Source: Lachnospiraceae bacterium (GTDB lineage Bacteria; Bacillota; Clostridia; Lachnospirales; Lachnospiraceae). From it: a stretch of DNA of 64,000 nt. The DNA lies in contig JAILQK010000019.1 in the NCBI GenBank assembly GCA_024699045.1, positions 1 through 64,000 of the forward strand. The letters run 5' to 3'. Shown here in pieces: positions 40,803 to 46,612 of this stretch (position 1 is the first letter of the stretch; each line of letters starts with the position of its first letter). Below the pieces are notes generated by a model. That model searched no databases and had not been told where the DNA came from. It worked only from the letters and a program-made list of their open reading frames with translations. A program made the translations under genes and the position numbers.

Positions 40803-41663
40803 CTATACATTACCCAGATAAACGTGATCCAGATGACCGGAGGCCACCGAGCGCAGCCTTTGCATAAGCTTAATGTCTGTGGGAGGCGTATCGGTCATCA
40901 TGTACTGCGGGAAATATCTGGTAATGTGGAGGATGATCCCGGGATCGATCCCTGCTATCCAGGCGGCTTCTTTTTCCATATCAGACGGCTCGTCGCTTAA
41001 TCCGGGTACGATAAGGGTGGTAAGCTCGATATGAGCTGAGGCATGAGCCGCTTTTATAAAAGTCTTTACCGTATCGAAGTCGCCTCCCAGAGATCTGTAT
41101 CCTTCGGAGGAAAACACTTTCAGGTCTATGTTCATTGCATCTATAAAGGGAAGAACCTCTTCAAGGATCTCAGGGTTTATGTTCCCGTTCGTCACGAGGA
41201 CATTTACCAGTCCGGCTTTCTTTACAAGCTTTGCGGTTTCCAGAACATATTCATAAGCTATAAGGGGTTCATTGTAGGTGTAGGCTACACCTATATTGCC
41301 GTGAGAGCCTGCCAGTTCGACAGCAAGTTCGCAAAGCTCCGTCGGGGAAAGCTTTTCGGTGCGGAAAGCTCCTTTGAGTCCTGTCTGTGAGATCTCGTGA
41401 TTCTGACAGAACCTGCAGGACATATTGCATCCGAAGCTTCCGACGGAAAGGACAGGGCTTCCCGGCATGAAACCGGCCAGAGGTTTCTTTTCTATGGGGT
41501 CCAGCGCGGTAGCCGTAAGGGAACCGTAAGACACGGGAACAATGCGGCCGTCTTTATTGTGCCGCGCACGGCACCGACCGGTCTGTCCCTCCGATAACCT
41601 GCACCGGTGCGGACATACCGGGCATACAGAAATCTGATCGCTGCCTGTAATCCTGTTTTCCAT
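40803..41663 (-). CDS. amrS: AmmeMemoRadiSam system radical SAM enzyme
   Basis: 286 residues. The radical SAM cluster motif is CNMSCRFCQNHEIS (CX3CX2C), preceded by a small Cys-containing N-terminal segment (CPVCPHRCRLSEGQTGRCRAR) typical of the AmrS/PflA-like group. GVAYTYNEPLIAYEYVL and VLVTNGNINPE follow as in pyruvate formate-lyase activating enzyme relatives. It lies 3 bases after the Memo-AMMECR1 fusion gene, the conserved partnership that names the system. The substrate and reaction of the system are not firmly known. Confidence 0.94.
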   Translation of the reverse strand: MENRITGSDQISVCPVCPHRCRLSEGQTGRCRARHNKDGRIVPVSYGSLTATALDPIEKKPLAGFMPGSPVLSVGSFGCNMSCRFCQNHEISQTGLKGAFRTEKLSPTELCELAVELAGSHGNIGVAYTYNEPLIAYEYVLETAKLVKKAGLVNVLVTNGNINPEILEEVLPFIDAMNIDLKVFSSEGYRSLGGDFDTVKTFIKAAHASAHIELTTLIVPGLSDEPSDMEKEAAWIAGIDPGIILHITRYFPQYMMTDTPPTDIKLMQRLRSVASGHLDHVYLGNV

Positions 41664-41666
41664 GGG

Positions 41667-43016
41667 TCAGATATGCCTTACGACTTCAAATCTCTGCAGT
41701 GTCAGCTCTTCTGAGGGCCCTATCCCCGCCTTCTGTCTTGCGATATCGATCTGCTGCTCCACGGTATCAACGCCGTCGAGATCAGGCAGAAGAAGACCCC
41801 GGCGCATTCCGTTTGAAACTATCACGCCGTAGCGTTTTACATCAAGTTCATCATATGAGGTTACCGGCTCAGCTTCACCAAGCACATCAACGTTGATCTC
41901 AAGGTCATCCAGTTCGTCCTCTTTTACCGGGGAGAACCGGGGATCTCTTGAGACTGCCGAAACCGCATTCTCCCGGATCTCTTCGGCAACACTGCCGCAG
42001 GTTGCGGAGATAGTCCCGATACACCCTCTTAACATCCCGAATTCGTGCACGGATACAAAGGCACCGGCCCGGGTCTGAAGCATTTCGTCCGGAAGCCCTT
42101 CAAGGTCCGGGAGTTTTTTGCCTTTCACAAAATTGTTGATGGTTTCTCTGGCAAGCCTGACATATGCGTCCATGGCATCCGCTCCTTTCTCTTTCCCGGC
42201 AGCGGGCCGGTCATCGTCTCTGATCCTGAATATCGCGATCCCGTATCCGACACCGAACGTTGCTTCATGCGACAGGACTTCGCTTTTGACATTATGGGAA
42301 TGAAGGATCCCGCTCAGAATGACAAAAGAACGATGTCCGCATTCCTGGCTCTTGTCCAGCAGCCGTTCATCAAATTGCGAGAGTTCGGAAAGAGCGCCCC
42401 TTTTGATCACATCCATGAGCATGGAGTCGTATTTCGGCCCTTCGGGCCGATAGCCGTAAGGCCCGTCGGCTTTTTGACAGTGGGAAAGGTCTCCGCTTGC
42501 GATGACCACGATCTTTTTGTCGGTCCTTGAGGCGACACGGTCGATAACTCTTCCAAGGCTTTTGTGAACATCGAGCGAAAAACCGGAGAGACCTATGCGG
42601 ACCAGTTTGTAACCGGTATATCTTTTGTTGATGAAGTAAAGGGGGACCATGGTACCGTGATCCAGACGAGGATCCGTTTCTCCGTCGGTACCGGCCGGGA
42701 TCCCGGCGCTCTCAGCGGCATCGCAGATCTGCTGAACAAGTTCGGTGTCATAGTCCACTTCGAAGGAGACCTCGGGAGCGCCGAAGCTTCCAAAATTTCC
42801 GGAGGCATGCGTCCCGGGTGATATATGAAAGTAGTCGGAATACATGGTCGCATGAGGAGAGGTAACGATGATGGTGTCAGGCTGTATGTCTGCGATCCGT
42901 CTGGATACTTTCTCGAATGCGCTTTCTGTTGAATGTATCTTCCATTGCTCGCCTCTTCCTATCTCGGGTACTGCGACCGGAGGGTGAGGTACCATGAATG
43001 CTTCTGTTATCGGCAT
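41667..43016 (-). CDS. Memo-AMMECR1 fusion protein (AmmeMemoRadiSam A and B)
   Basis: 449 residues. The N-terminal half (~1-265) is a Memo/class III extradiol dioxygenase-like domain (HPPVAVPEIG, VTSPHATMYSDYF, DHGTMVPLYFI, VVIASGDLSHC). The C-terminal half (~280-449) is AMMECR1 (YVRLARETINNFV, AGAFVSVHEFGMLRGCIGT). The two are often separate genes; here they are fused. I start at the ATG at 43016 because AAGGAG lies 7 bases before it but only 1 base before the track ATG at 43022. The radical SAM enzyme follows, so A, B and S are all present. Confidence 0.94.
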   Translation of the reverse strand: MPITEAFMVPHPPVAVPEIGRGEQWKIHSTESAFEKVSRRIADIQPDTIIVTSPHATMYSDYFHISPGTHASGNFGSFGAPEVSFEVDYDTELVQQICDAAESAGIPAGTDGETDPRLDHGTMVPLYFINKRYTGYKLVRIGLSGFSLDVHKSLGRVIDRVASRTDKKIVVIASGDLSHCQKADGPYGYRPEGPKYDSMLMDVIKRGALSELSQFDERLLDKSQECGHRSFVILSGILHSHNVKSEVLSHEATFGVGYGIAIFRIRDDDRPAAGKEKGADAMDAYVRLARETINNFVKGKKLPDLEGLPDEMLQTRAGAFVSVHEFGMLRGCIGTISATCGSVAEEIRENAVSAVSRDPRFSPVKEDELDDLEINVDVLGEAEPVTSYDELDVKRYGVIVSNGMRRGLLLPDLDGVDTVEQQIDIARQKAGIGPSEELTLQRFEVVRHI

Positions 43017-43149
43017 GGGCATACTCCTTCTTTTCGGTAAGCTCTCTTACACAGTCGACCATAATCGGTACTATTTCAACTTTACTACCAAAATACAGAA
43101 GCATCAATACATTAAAAATAATTGCAAGGGTCATTGTTCCGGTCATCAT
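42877..43149 (-). CDS. Possible small membrane protein overlapping the Memo start
   Basis: 90 codons starting at an ATG with GGAGG 5 bases upstream, an excellent site. The first ~35 residues hold one hydrophobic helix (TLAIIFNVLMLLYFG) and look protein-like. The last ~45 codons overlap the Memo reading frame and look like off-frame sequence (many Arg, Ser, Gly). It may be a short real gene whose end has drifted, or a translated leader that couples ribosomes into Memo. A TATAAT lies on the same strand at 43169-43164, too close to leave the full ribosome site in the transcript. Uncertain. Confidence 0.35.
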   Translation of the reverse strand: MMTGTMTLAIIFNVLMLLYFGSKVEIVPIMVDCVRELTEKKEYAHADNRSIHGTSPSGRSTRDRKRRAMEDTFNRKRIRESIQTDRRHTA

Positions 43150-43304
43150 GCGAACCTCCGTGTATTATACTGAATGAGTTTATATGCCGCTGTCATCATC
43201 TTATGAAAGGATTTTCTCAAAATGAATGTACATTAAGACGGACAGCATCATTTGGCGCGGGAGGTGACAGAATTGAAGTGACAGGTTAAATGCGTATGGG
43301 ATTG

Positions 43305-43334
43305 TTGACCCTGTTTCAGCAGTTCTAGTATAAT
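43305..43334 (+). promoter_or_regulatory. gtrA promoter placed for a leaderless transcript
   Basis: TTGACC (43305-43310), 18-base spacer, TATAAT (43329-43334). The start codon follows within 2-8 bases, so initiation 6-8 bases after the -10 falls at the ATG at 43342. Confidence 0.65.
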
Positions 43335-43341
43335 CATGGCG

Positions 43342-43806
43342 ATGGATGATTTTATAAGAAGGGTACTAAAGATTTTTCATATCAGGCTTTCGGAGGGAAA
43401 GGAGACGGCTCTGATCCAGTTCGTTAAGTTCGGGATAGTGGGAGTTTCCAATACTCTGCTGAGCTATGCGATCAACGTGGTGATCCTGCTCGCGCTTTCC
43501 CCACTGAAGCTTTCCTGGGATTATTTTGCGGCAAATGTGGTCGCGTTCATCCTCAGCGTAGCCTGGTCATTTTTCTGGAACAATAAATATGTGTTCGTGA
43601 AGAAGGACGGAGAGAAGAGGAACATCTGGGCCGCGCTCTTAAAGACATATATTTCCTATGCGCTTACCGGTCTTGTGCTGGCCAATGTCCTTTCTTATAT
43701 CTGGATCGATGTGGTGGGCATATCAAAATTCATCGCGCCGCTGCTCAATCTGATAATAAGTGTTCCCGTGAATTTCCTTATGAATAAGCTCTGGGCATTC
43801 AAATGA
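43342..43806 (+). CDS. GtrA family membrane protein
   Basis: 154 residues (156 if the ATG at 43336 is used). Four hydrophobic helices and the GtrA pattern LIQFVKFGIVGVSNTLLSYAIN, FFWNNKYVF and NFLMNKLWAFK. GtrA proteins are thought to flip lipid-linked sugars such as undecaprenyl-phosphate-glucose, or otherwise support glycan decoration. No ribosome site precedes either ATG; the -10 element ends 1 or 7 bases before them. I favour 43342, where transcription should start. No partner glycosyltransferase is adjacent. Confidence 0.9.
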   Translation: MDDFIRRVLKIFHIRLSEGKETALIQFVKFGIVGVSNTLLSYAINVVILLALSPLKLSWDYFAANVVAFILSVAWSFFWNNKYVFVKKDGEKRNIWAALLKTYISYALTGLVLANVLSYIWIDVVGISKFIAPLLNLIISVPVNFLMNKLWAFK

Positions 43807-43856
43807 ACCCATATAAAGCCCCCGTTTCAGGAGCGCGGGCAGGATAAAAAAAGTAG

Positions 43857-43885
43857 TTGCATTTTGAGTTAGTCTATGCTAACAT
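43857..43885 (+). promoter_or_regulatory. Orphan promoter inside a double dyad
   Basis: TTGCAT (43857-43862), 17-base spacer, TAACAT (43880-43885). The spacer and -10 are covered by the left half of the GTTAG/CTAAC dyad. No gene follows on this strand; clpB converges from the right. Confidence 0.4.
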
Positions 43886-43909
43886 ATCACATGGTTAGCA
43901 ATGACTAAC
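43868..43909. promoter_or_regulatory. Tandem GTTAG-N6-CTAAC operator-like dyad
   Basis: GTTAGTCTATGCTAAC, 10-base spacer, GTTAGCAATGACTAAC. Each half is itself an inverted repeat, and the two halves are inverted copies of each other with two mismatches. The shape resembles binding sites of DtxR/IdeR-type metal repressors (TTAG...CTAA), though that is inference. Confidence 0.55.
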
Positions 43910-43934
43910 ACATACATTTATATTTCTCCTATAC

Positions 43935-43978
43935 TATAATATCCGTTCCGGGGGTGGGATACCGGAACGGATATTATA
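43935..43978. terminator. 17-bp perfect hairpin downstream of clpB
   Basis: TATAATATCCGTTCCGG (43935-43951), 10-base loop, CCGGAACGGATATTATA (43962-43978). It is 24 bases past the clpB stop and could end clpB transcription and any transcript from the orphan promoter at 43857. Neither side has a proper T-run, so it is an atypical intrinsic terminator. Confidence 0.5.
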
Positions 43979-44002
43979 CTGTTCAGCGTTATGGGACGGG
44001 CT

Positions 44003-46612
44003 TCAGTCTGCAGCGTTTCTGATGATCTCTGCCTTAAGCGCAGGGTTCCCCTCGCTTTGATCGCGATCGATGTTTATCACGTCACCCTCACCGGCCCCGT
44101 CGGAAAGGATGGCTCTTGCTGCAAGGGTTTCCACGTTCTTTTGCATGTACCGCTTCAGCGGACGAGCGCCGTATACGGGATCATATCCGCCGTCGGCTAT
44201 GATTTTTTTCGCTTCGTCCGTAAGGGTTATGGAGAGCTGCTTATCGGCAAGTCTCTTGTTCGTGTCCGCGATAAGGAGCTCGATGATCCCTTTGATATTT
44301 GCCTTGGTCAGCGGCCTGAATTCAATGATCTCGTCCAGCCGGTTCAGGAATTCGGGCCTGAAGTGGGAGCGCAGCTCCGCGTCAACCGCCTGATGAGCCT
44401 CACTGCTTATACGTCCCGAGTCATCGATACCTTCCAGAAGGTATTGAGAGCCTATATTGGACGTCATGATAAGGATGGTATTCTTGAAGTCCACGGTCCT
44501 GCCCTGAGAGTCCGTTATGCGTCCGTCATCAAGGACCTGGAGCAGCACATTGAACACATCCGGATGGGCTTTTTCGACCTCATCGAAGAGCACCACGGAA
44601 TAAGGGTGTCTCCTGACCGCTTCGGTAAGCTGACCGCCCTCGTCATATCCTACATATCCGGGAGGGGCTCCTATGAGCCTTGATACCGAGAATTTTTCCA
44701 TATATTCGGACATATCTATCCTGACGATGTTGTTTTCATCGTCAAACAGTGCTTCGGCCAGAGCCTTTGCGAGCTCGGTCTTGCCGACTCCGGTAGGGCC
44801 CAGGAAGAGGAAGCTTCCGATTGGCTTTGACGGATCCTTGATCCCGGCCCTTGACCTTATGATCGCATCGACGACCTTTTCGACGGCTTCGTTCTGGCCG
44901 ATCACGCGTTTATGAAGAGTGTCTCCCAGATGGAGAACCTTTTCCCTCTCGCCTTCATTCAGCTTGGAGACGGGGATCCCTGTCCAGCGGGATACGATCG
45001 TAGCGATCTCGTCTTCGGTAACGGCTTCGTGCACCATCGAGATGTCTTTTGAATTTAAGGCTGATTCTGCGGCTTCAAGTTCGGACTGAAGCTTCGGAAG
45101 GTCACCGTACTGAAGCTTGGCGGCTTTTTCCAGATCCCCCTGCCTCTGGGCGATCTGTATCTCATTGTTTACCGACTCTATCTGCTCACGCAGCTCCGAG
45201 AGCCTGCCTACGCTCTGCTTTTCATTATCCCACTTGGCTTTGTCGTTCTGGAAGGCCTCGTTCAGCTCGGAGATATCCTTTTGCAGTTCCGAAAGCCGCT
45301 GTTTTGACGCATTGTCTTTTTCCTTTTTCAGGGCGGTCTCTTCTATCTGCATCTGAGTGAGCCTTCTCCTCATCTCATCAAGCTCCGCGGGCATCGAATC
45401 CATTTCGGTCTTTATCGAAGCGCAGGCTTCATCGACAAGGTCTATCGCTTTGTCGGGCAGGAATCTGTCCGAGATATAACGGTTTGACAGGACTGCGGCA
45501 GCTACGAGAGCCGAATCGGCGATCTTTACGCTGTGATATACCTCATAGCGGTCCTTGAGTCCGCGGAGTATCGATATGGTATCCTCCACCGTGGGCTCGT
45601 CTACGAGAACCGGCTGGAAACGGCGCTCCAGCGCTTTGTCCTTTTCTATGTATTCCCTGTATTCATCAAGGGTCGTCGCGCCTATACAGTGAAGCTCTCC
45701 GCGCGCCAGCATCGGTTTGAGCATATTGCCGGCATCCATTGCGCCGTCGGTCTTGCCGGCGCCGACTATAAGATGCAGCTCGTCTATGAACAGGATGACT
45801 CTTCCGTCGGAACGCCGCACTTCCTCGAGGACCGCCTTAAGCCTTTCCTCAAACTCACCGCGATATTTTGCCCCGGCTACGAGGGCGCCCATATCAAGAG
45901 AGAAGATCTCCTTTTCCTTAAGTGCATCGGGGACATCCCCGGCTACTATCCTCTGGGCAAGGCCTTCGACCGCGGCGGTCTTTCCGACGCCGGGTTCTCC
46001 GATAAGGACCGGATTGTTCTTTGTTTTCCTTGAAAGGATGAGGATGGTGTTGCGGATCTCCGTATCACGTCCGATGACAGGATCAAGCTTTTGTTCTCTG
46101 GCTCTGGCGACCAGATTTGTACCGTATTTTTCAAGCACATCGTAGGTGTCTTCGGGATTGTCGGTATTTACGCTCTGATTACCGCGGACTTCGGAGAGGA
46201 CCTGAAGAAAATGGTCTCTTGTGATGCCGTAATCCTTCAGGATCTCTTTAAGCTCGCGGCCCGGGTGTTTTATCGTTGCGAGAAAGAGATGCTCTACCGA
46301 TACATATGAATCGCCCATGGCCTTTGCCTCGTCCGGCGCCGAGAGGAGGATCTTATTCAGATCCTGTCCCATATAAGACTCAGCCCCCTGAACCTTCGGG
46401 CGTTTTTCTATTATCCCGAGGATACCCTGAGTGAATTCCTCGGTATCTATCCACATCTTTTCAATGAGTTTCTTGATCAGGGAATCGTCCAGCGTCATCA
46501 GTGAATAAACGAGATGAGCGGGGACCAGTTCCTGGTTGCCGTAATCCGAAGCGATCTTCTGGCATCCGTTTACCGCCTTGATGGAATTTTGTGTAAATTT
46601 GTCTATATTCAT
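44003..46612 (-). CDS. clpB: ClpB disaggregase ATPase
   Basis: 869 residues with the full ClpB layout: N-terminal Clp repeat domain (~1-145), first AAA+ with Walker [17 protein letters not shown] (~205), coiled-coil middle domain (~400-525, typical of ClpB and absent from ClpA), second AAA+ with [16 protein letters not shown] and the ClpB sequence [20 protein letters not shown], and a C-terminal small domain ending in NIDRDQSEG. It resolubilises aggregated proteins together with DnaK. A GGAGG site precedes the ATG. A CIRCE operator lies over its promoter, so HrcA control is expected. Confidence 0.97.

Follow-up and report, generated by a model that had tools for sequence, protein, structure and literature searches.

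Sequence elements between gtrA and clpB

The window, which is the whole stretch of 64,000 nucleotides analysed here, contains an intergenic interval flanked by gtrA and clpB. The gtrA gene, with a GtrA domain, stops at 43806 upstream of the interval. The clpB gene (44003-46612, minus strand) converges on it, and no gene follows the interval on the plus strand. Within the interval, TTGCAT and TAACAT are separated by 17 bases, two perfect GTTAG-N6-CTAAC dyads lie over and after this promoter-like sequence, and a perfect hairpin of 17 bp is found downstream (Table 1). The dyads, the hairpin and the lack of a downstream reading frame had all been described in an earlier note on this sequence, and the direct reading agrees with it. 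When operator 2 was reverse-complemented and compared with operator 1, 2 of the 16 positions differed.

Table 1 Features of the predicted small RNA gene, with positions counted in the window.
Feature	Position	Strand	Basis
-35 hexamer TTGCAT	43857..43862	+	Direct reading; TTGCAT or TTGACA aligned in relatives, likewise 17 bp from the -10
-10 hexamer TAACAT with extended -10 TGC	43880..43885	+	Direct reading; most relatives have TAATAT or TAACAT here
Operator 1 GTTAGTCTATGCTAAC, covering spacer and -10	43868..43883	.	Direct reading, genome count, shuffles
Operator 2 GTTAGCAATGACTAAC, at predicted transcript start	43894..43909	.	Direct reading, genome count, shuffles
Predicted small RNA, about 90 nt	43892..43983	+	Interval conserved in congeners; covariance model R1 match 43892-43983
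Conserved unpaired stretch CATACATTTATATTTCTCCTATA	43911..43933	+	Unpaired in predicted fold; aligned in relatives
Proposed pairing seed AUUUCUCCU, complementary to Shine-Dalgarno type AGGAGAAAU	43922..43930	+	Identical in 18 of 20 members
Terminator-like 17-bp hairpin	43935..43978	+	Predicted fold; covariation in 20 sequences

The arms of the hairpin (43935-43951 and 43962-43978) are paired at all 17 bp. The predicted folding energy is -32.4 kcal/mol (z = -5.1), and none of 200 shuffled sequences was equally stable. The T-run behind the hairpin is weak in the window's genome and clear in several relatives. The hairpin may also terminate clpB from the opposite side. The -35 hexamer is weak in the window's genome, where the promoter is missed by a plain sigma-70 scan. 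The putative promoter was assigned from the extended -10 (TGC-TAACAT) and from the many relatives with TTGACA-N17-TAATAT, a far better match than the window's own. The ends of the predicted RNA were placed about 7 bases past the -10 and just past the hairpin.

Two coding readings of the interval were rejected. The minus-strand reading, with AGGAGAAATATAAATG as ribosome-binding site and start, was dropped on inspection; its start codon is absent or displaced in genomes G009, G014, and G030, and the frame also extends into the operators. The plus-strand frame of 12 codons (ATGACTAAC...) begins in the variable centre of the operator and is not conserved.

Further upstream, a radical-SAM-like gene and a LigB and AMMECR1 fusion gene form an AmmeMemoRadiSam-type pair on the minus strand (40803-43022). 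A homologous pair directly precedes the small RNA gene in G020.

Conservation and covariation in congeneric genomes

A 200-base query over the interval matched 16 of 47 congeneric genomes. In 15 of the 16 matches the elements follow one another as in the window: the -35 comes first, operator 1 overlaps the -10, operator 2 falls on the predicted start, and an unpaired ACAUUUAUAUUUCUCCUAU-like stretch leads to the hairpin. The remaining match, G036, has a single dyad only and was left out of the member count. Operator 1 is lost in the G023 copy, and the hairpin is less clear in the G007 copy. A covariance model was then built from 13 copies of the interval. It added four congeners (G010, G015, G031, and G035) and matched two further Lachnospiraceae genera (G153 and G127), none of which had been used in building the model. 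The total for the genus is 20 genomes including the window's own, or 19 of the 47 other congeners, with the weak model matches in G376, G231, G157, G036, and G016 excluded from the members.

Covariation was measured in a 20-sequence alignment fitted to the model, and a MAFFT alignment shows the same picture. Changes on both sides were found in 10 of the 11 model pairs of the stem, and 94.9% of the cells are paired. The covariation score was 0.74, compared with 0.20 for shuffled alignments and at most 0.16 for slid structures. The seed AUUUCUCCU is identical in 18 of the 20 members. In 19 of 22 examined copies both operators retain the form TTAG-N6-CTAA, with an operator-to-operator spacing of 24-29 bp in copies where both are intact, and GTTAG and CTAAC of operator 2 are invariant in 20 of 20 members of alignment A2. 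The hairpin loop carries a second conserved motif, RGCCA, in one subgroup (G009, G014, G030, G032, G039, G042, G010, G015, G031, and G153), and reads GGGAUACC in the window's subgroup. This loop motif may be a second pairing site.

The Rfam 15 covariance-model search of 43000-44500, with E up to 5, matched no RNA family at the element and gave only one chance-level match elsewhere. A plasmid search for the G032 contig returned weak matches only. The dyad was beside clpB in none of the named genomes with ClpB relatives, which are too distant for this comparison (closest named ClpB records 79% and less).

The neighbours of the element vary from genome to genome, several of the gene names having been assigned by eye. 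The gtrA gene is beside it in the window, G021, and G022, and clpB is beside it in the window, G033, and G007 and absent beside most copies. An ECF-type transporter is the neighbour in G017, and a metal P-type ATPase region is near the element in G032, G047, and G039. In G023 the element lies between feoB and a DtxR gene, and in G041 it adjoins an mntP-type gene. Flavodoxin and DUF3793-type genes are the neighbours in G009, G014, and G030, where the element lies 184-288 bp ahead of the flavodoxin gene on the same strand. This drift of the neighbours toward iron and metal genes is a clue to function. By computation, the element has its own conserved promoter, structure, and covarying hairpin between varying neighbours, as an independent intergenic RNA gene would.

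The element might not act in trans, and could instead be a metal-regulated leader or attenuator of a neighbouring gene, or the terminator of clpB beside a stray promoter. The hairpin just beyond the clpB stop and the position ahead of the flavodoxin gene in three genomes favour such a role, but the next gene converges on the element in the window, G033, and G007 and differs in many others, clpB is missing beside most copies, and the seed is conserved beyond a terminator's needs; we give this reading only a very small probability. The second option of the earlier note, a relic of a lost iron-transport operon, would account for the plus strand without a following gene. However, the promoter, operators, pairing region, and hairpin have stayed linked in 20 genomes of this genus, the window's own included, while the neighbours changed, and compensatory changes maintained across many species are unexpected of a relic. 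The relic proposal therefore fails and has practically no probability left, and the conservation in close relatives that the note had named as a check was found. Because the neighbours vary, neither the leader of one gene nor the relic of one operon fits, and a stand-alone RNA gene does. From sequence comparison, the interval is a predicted small RNA gene and not a relic, because it is conserved as a unit between differing neighbours with a covarying hairpin.

The operator dyad and the genes that share it

In the window's genome, the exact GTTAG-N6-CTAAC dyad occurs at 9 sites, and its reversed control at 0. When up to one mismatch was allowed, the reversed control gave 32 sites and the real motif only 11. 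The exact dyad thus stands far above background, with 9 sites against 0 and yet few one-mismatch variants, and it is not scattered at random as had been considered beforehand. Within the window, the 2 observed dyads compare with 0 matches in 100 shuffles. Enrichment over the reversed control was found across the genus (for example 20 versus 0, 16 versus 0, and 12 versus 0) and in much of the family.

In relatives, the dyad was found ahead of feoA/feoB (loci L169, L181, and L187), ferritin (L184), flavodoxin with a DUF3793-type gene (L186), and a flavodoxin-like gene (L179), and about 100 bp ahead of a DtxR-family gene (L185). In the window's genome its neighbours include a DUF3793-like gene together with an NhaC-type gene in divergent orientation, ABC exporters with TetR, and a methyltransferase gene followed by a heavy-metal P-type ATPase gene. 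Several operator sites precede genes without a known iron role (enolase, flgG/mreB type). One exact dyad of the window's genome (L010:853-868, G000:C181) lies between flgG-type and mreB-type genes, where a link to iron is not evident.

Two families of SAM-methyltransferases, with proteins starting MTDKEYKxLSIKEFSKAARVYETDKGG and MDLKFGDVQETALIPLAIKASET, are directly behind the operator in many congeners, and so are paired ABC exporters with TetR genes. These methyltransferase/exporter loci (L009, L155, L161, L166, L170, L177, and L188) are possibly a metal-handling or metallophore system.

The sites have TTAG and CTAA half-sites at the DtxR spacing before iron genes, as operators of a DtxR/IdeR regulon do. 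With a leading T added to the DtxR box (TTAGGTTAG(G/C)CTAACCTAA), TTAG-N6-CTAA would fit twice into that box, shifted by 5 bp. The published box of DtxR/IdeR is TAGGTTAG(G/C)CTAACCTAA (PMC12327846). In contrast, the full 19-bp box for two dimers is absent here. The sites are single GTTAG-N6-CTAAC dyads with a variable centre, each of which would fit one dimer.

A regulator that does not sense metal, such as a TetR-family protein, could own the operator instead, and the RNA would then answer another signal. Two sites in the window's genome and several in relatives do adjoin TetR and ABC exporter or TetR and MATE genes, but the dyad is also found repeatedly ahead of feo, ferritin, flavodoxin, and dtxR genes without a TetR gene directly adjacent, and its half-sites at N6 spacing occur twice in the DtxR box (PMC12327846). 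TetR ownership is accordingly regarded as very unlikely. Since the operator is common to feoA/feoB, ferritin, flavodoxin, DUF3793-type, and DtxR-family genes, its likeliest owner would be a DtxR-type iron repressor. The regulon sharing the dyad, together with conservation and covariation, supports what the earlier note had suggested, a small RNA of about 90 bases under a DtxR-like metal repressor.

Candidate repressor

The only DtxR-family match in the window's genome is a protein of 121 amino acids with one PF02742 match above the cut-off. It aligns over its length with the structures of MntR, IdeR, and DtxR, covering the winged helix and the metal-binding/dimerisation domain. At the recognition-helix position it carries SKPSVS, and the recognition helix of DtxR has SGPTVS at the corresponding position.

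The nearest solved relatives of this protein are MntRs, and its NCBIfam scores are closest to MntR, below the cut-off. MntR-like manganese sensing by the operator-binding protein is possible. The small RNA would then be under a metal-dependent repressor that responds to manganese or a different signal, and its role would not be iron sparing; the mntP-type gene adjoining the RNA gene in G041 and the precedent of RsaC under MntR in S. aureus (PMC9294342) fit this. We nevertheless judge it unlikely, against an operator that precedes feoA, feoB, ferritin, and flavodoxin and proposed targets that are iron proteins.

Putative mRNA targets

The seed AUUUCUCCU complements Shine-Dalgarno sites. The pattern AGGAGAAAT-N1-9-ATG was searched in six RNA-bearing genomes, and the genes behind the pattern were then identified. 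A rubrerythrin-type gene was found behind AGGAGAAAT in 5 of the 6 genomes, plus a second rubrerythrin. The glutamate synthase small subunit (gltA), two NADH-4Fe-4S/Fer4 oxidoreductases, two indolepyruvate:ferredoxin oxidoreductase alpha subunits (IorA), two Fer4 aldo-keto reductases, two aconitase-family enzymes, a TM1266-type hydrogenase regulator, a LUD protein, and other genes were also found. At gltA of G020, 16 of 17 positions match the complement of the window's 17-mer, and at the LUD gene 17 of 17 do; the G020 RNA itself departs from the window's RNA at one of the 17 positions, which leaves one mismatch to it at each site.

Six congeners where neither search found the RNA served as control; these are draft genomes that may hold diverged copies. 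The same pattern preceded 46 genes in them, and the iron proteins, judged by regex and eye and not by Pfam, were two IscU-type scaffolds only. Iron proteins thus stand behind AGGAGAAAT in 15 of 42 cases in the RNA-bearing genomes versus 2 of 46 in the control congeners (Fisher p = 0.0002), the RNA-bearing genomes being near relatives whose common ribosome-binding sites are not independent. With the cysteine-motif regex alone, the counts were 10 of 42 versus 2 of 46 (p = 0.008), and both control matches look like zinc proteins. For the rubrerythrin ribosome-binding sites alone, AGGAGAAAT was found in 7 of 16 RNA-bearing genomes versus 1 of 13 other genomes, with G031 and G035 counted as bearing; this comparison by itself is only suggestive.

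Unbiased duplex-energy scans covered about 395 kb of G020 and about 380 kb of the window's genome (about 14% of each) and gave no significant Fe-S enrichment, with 10-12 Fe-S-motif genes in each. In the scanned part of the window's genome, exact AGGAGAAAT is ahead of rplO and a few others, with no clear Fe-S target. The complement of the 17-mer seed at 3 mismatches gave fewer matches than the reversed control. In addition, AUUUCUCCU is a generic anti-Shine-Dalgarno sequence, which counts against specific targeting. One recurrent seed-complement match, TACAGGAGAAATATAGA, present in three genomes, was dropped; it has no start codon behind it and resembles coding sequence.

Many genes of G020 (L297-L316) share the leader ACGCTTTATAGAGGAG just ahead of the start codon. 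This leader resembles a promoter/ribosome-binding element that recurs in that species.

Proposed mechanism

We consider it probable that a free-standing gene occupies the interval and encodes a base-pairing RNA of about 90 nt that acts in trans and would be DtxR-controlled and iron-sparing. This reading draws on the sequence elements and their joint conservation, on the covarying hairpin, on the operator common to iron genes, and on the enrichment of iron proteins at seed-complementary ribosome-binding sites in RNA-bearing relatives. Its transcription, the binding, identity, and metal of the repressor, and the pairing with mRNAs and its effect are what we infer.

When iron is plentiful, the DtxR-family Fe(II) repressor would sit on both GTTAG-N6-CTAAC operators, covering the -10 region as well as the start site, and so block transcription. 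When iron is low, the repressor would leave, and RNA polymerase would transcribe the RNA as far as the hairpin. The exposed AUUUCUCCU would then pair with AGGAGAAAU-type ribosome-binding sites on mRNAs for iron-rich proteins. The pairing would lower their translation, and iron would be spared.

Comparison with known iron-sparing RNAs

RyhB in E. coli cuts back iron-rich proteins when iron is short. The proposed logic of the Lachnospiraceae RNA, by analogy, resembles that of FsrA, IsrR, and most of all MrsI. FsrA of Bacillus subtilis is a short stand-alone RNA with iron-type control and a C/U-rich stretch directed toward ribosome-binding sites, as proposed for the Lachnospiraceae RNA, and its target classes overlap with the putative ones here (glt genes, aconitase, lut/LUD) (PMC12871923, PMC9410917). 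FsrA is known to target glt, citB (aconitase), and lut genes (PMC12871923), on which the putative targets found here converge independently. FsrA is under Fur and uses Fbp proteins, whereas the Lachnospiraceae RNA has a DtxR-like operator and the seed AUUUCUCCU. IsrR of Staphylococcus aureus has a promoter with two copies of an iron-repressor operator, and it pairs with the Shine-Dalgarno regions of mRNAs for iron-containing enzymes (PMC9410917), as proposed for the Lachnospiraceae RNA. However, IsrR has Fur boxes and three C-rich regions, and it is a different RNA with no resemblance found. In Mycobacterium tuberculosis, the iron-sparing sRNA MrsI has a length of about 100 nt, and its promoter carries a site for IdeR, a DtxR-family protein; the regulatory logic is the one proposed here (PMC8628891). 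MrsI differs in being actinobacterial, with a 6-nt seed and hypF and bfrA as targets, and IdeR is a full-length repressor whereas the Lachnospiraceae candidate is a short DtxR-family protein.

The predicted RNA is rated as a new family of the proposed iron-sparing kind; the comparison with FsrA, IsrR, and MrsI was made via Rfam only, and sequence kinship to them is not claimed. A 2022 review of metal-responsive RNAs gives none for iron-sensing DtxR (PMC9294342), and MrsI under IdeR is an exception. Our literature search found no description of an iron-sparing RNA in Lachnospiraceae. We lean toward an undescribed RNA family of the Lachnospiraceae that would spare iron by silencing rubrerythrin, glutamate synthase, an aconitase-family enzyme, and ferredoxin-linked oxidoreductases, under the control of a short DtxR-type iron repressor in place of Fur.

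Lachnospiraceae are dominant anaerobes of the gut and rumen and depend on Fe-S enzymes. If the proposal is true, Clostridia evolved the strategy of RyhB anew, with another family of repressor in control. The operator would then give a means of reading the iron regulon of Lachnospiraceae, and a testable list of targets would be available.
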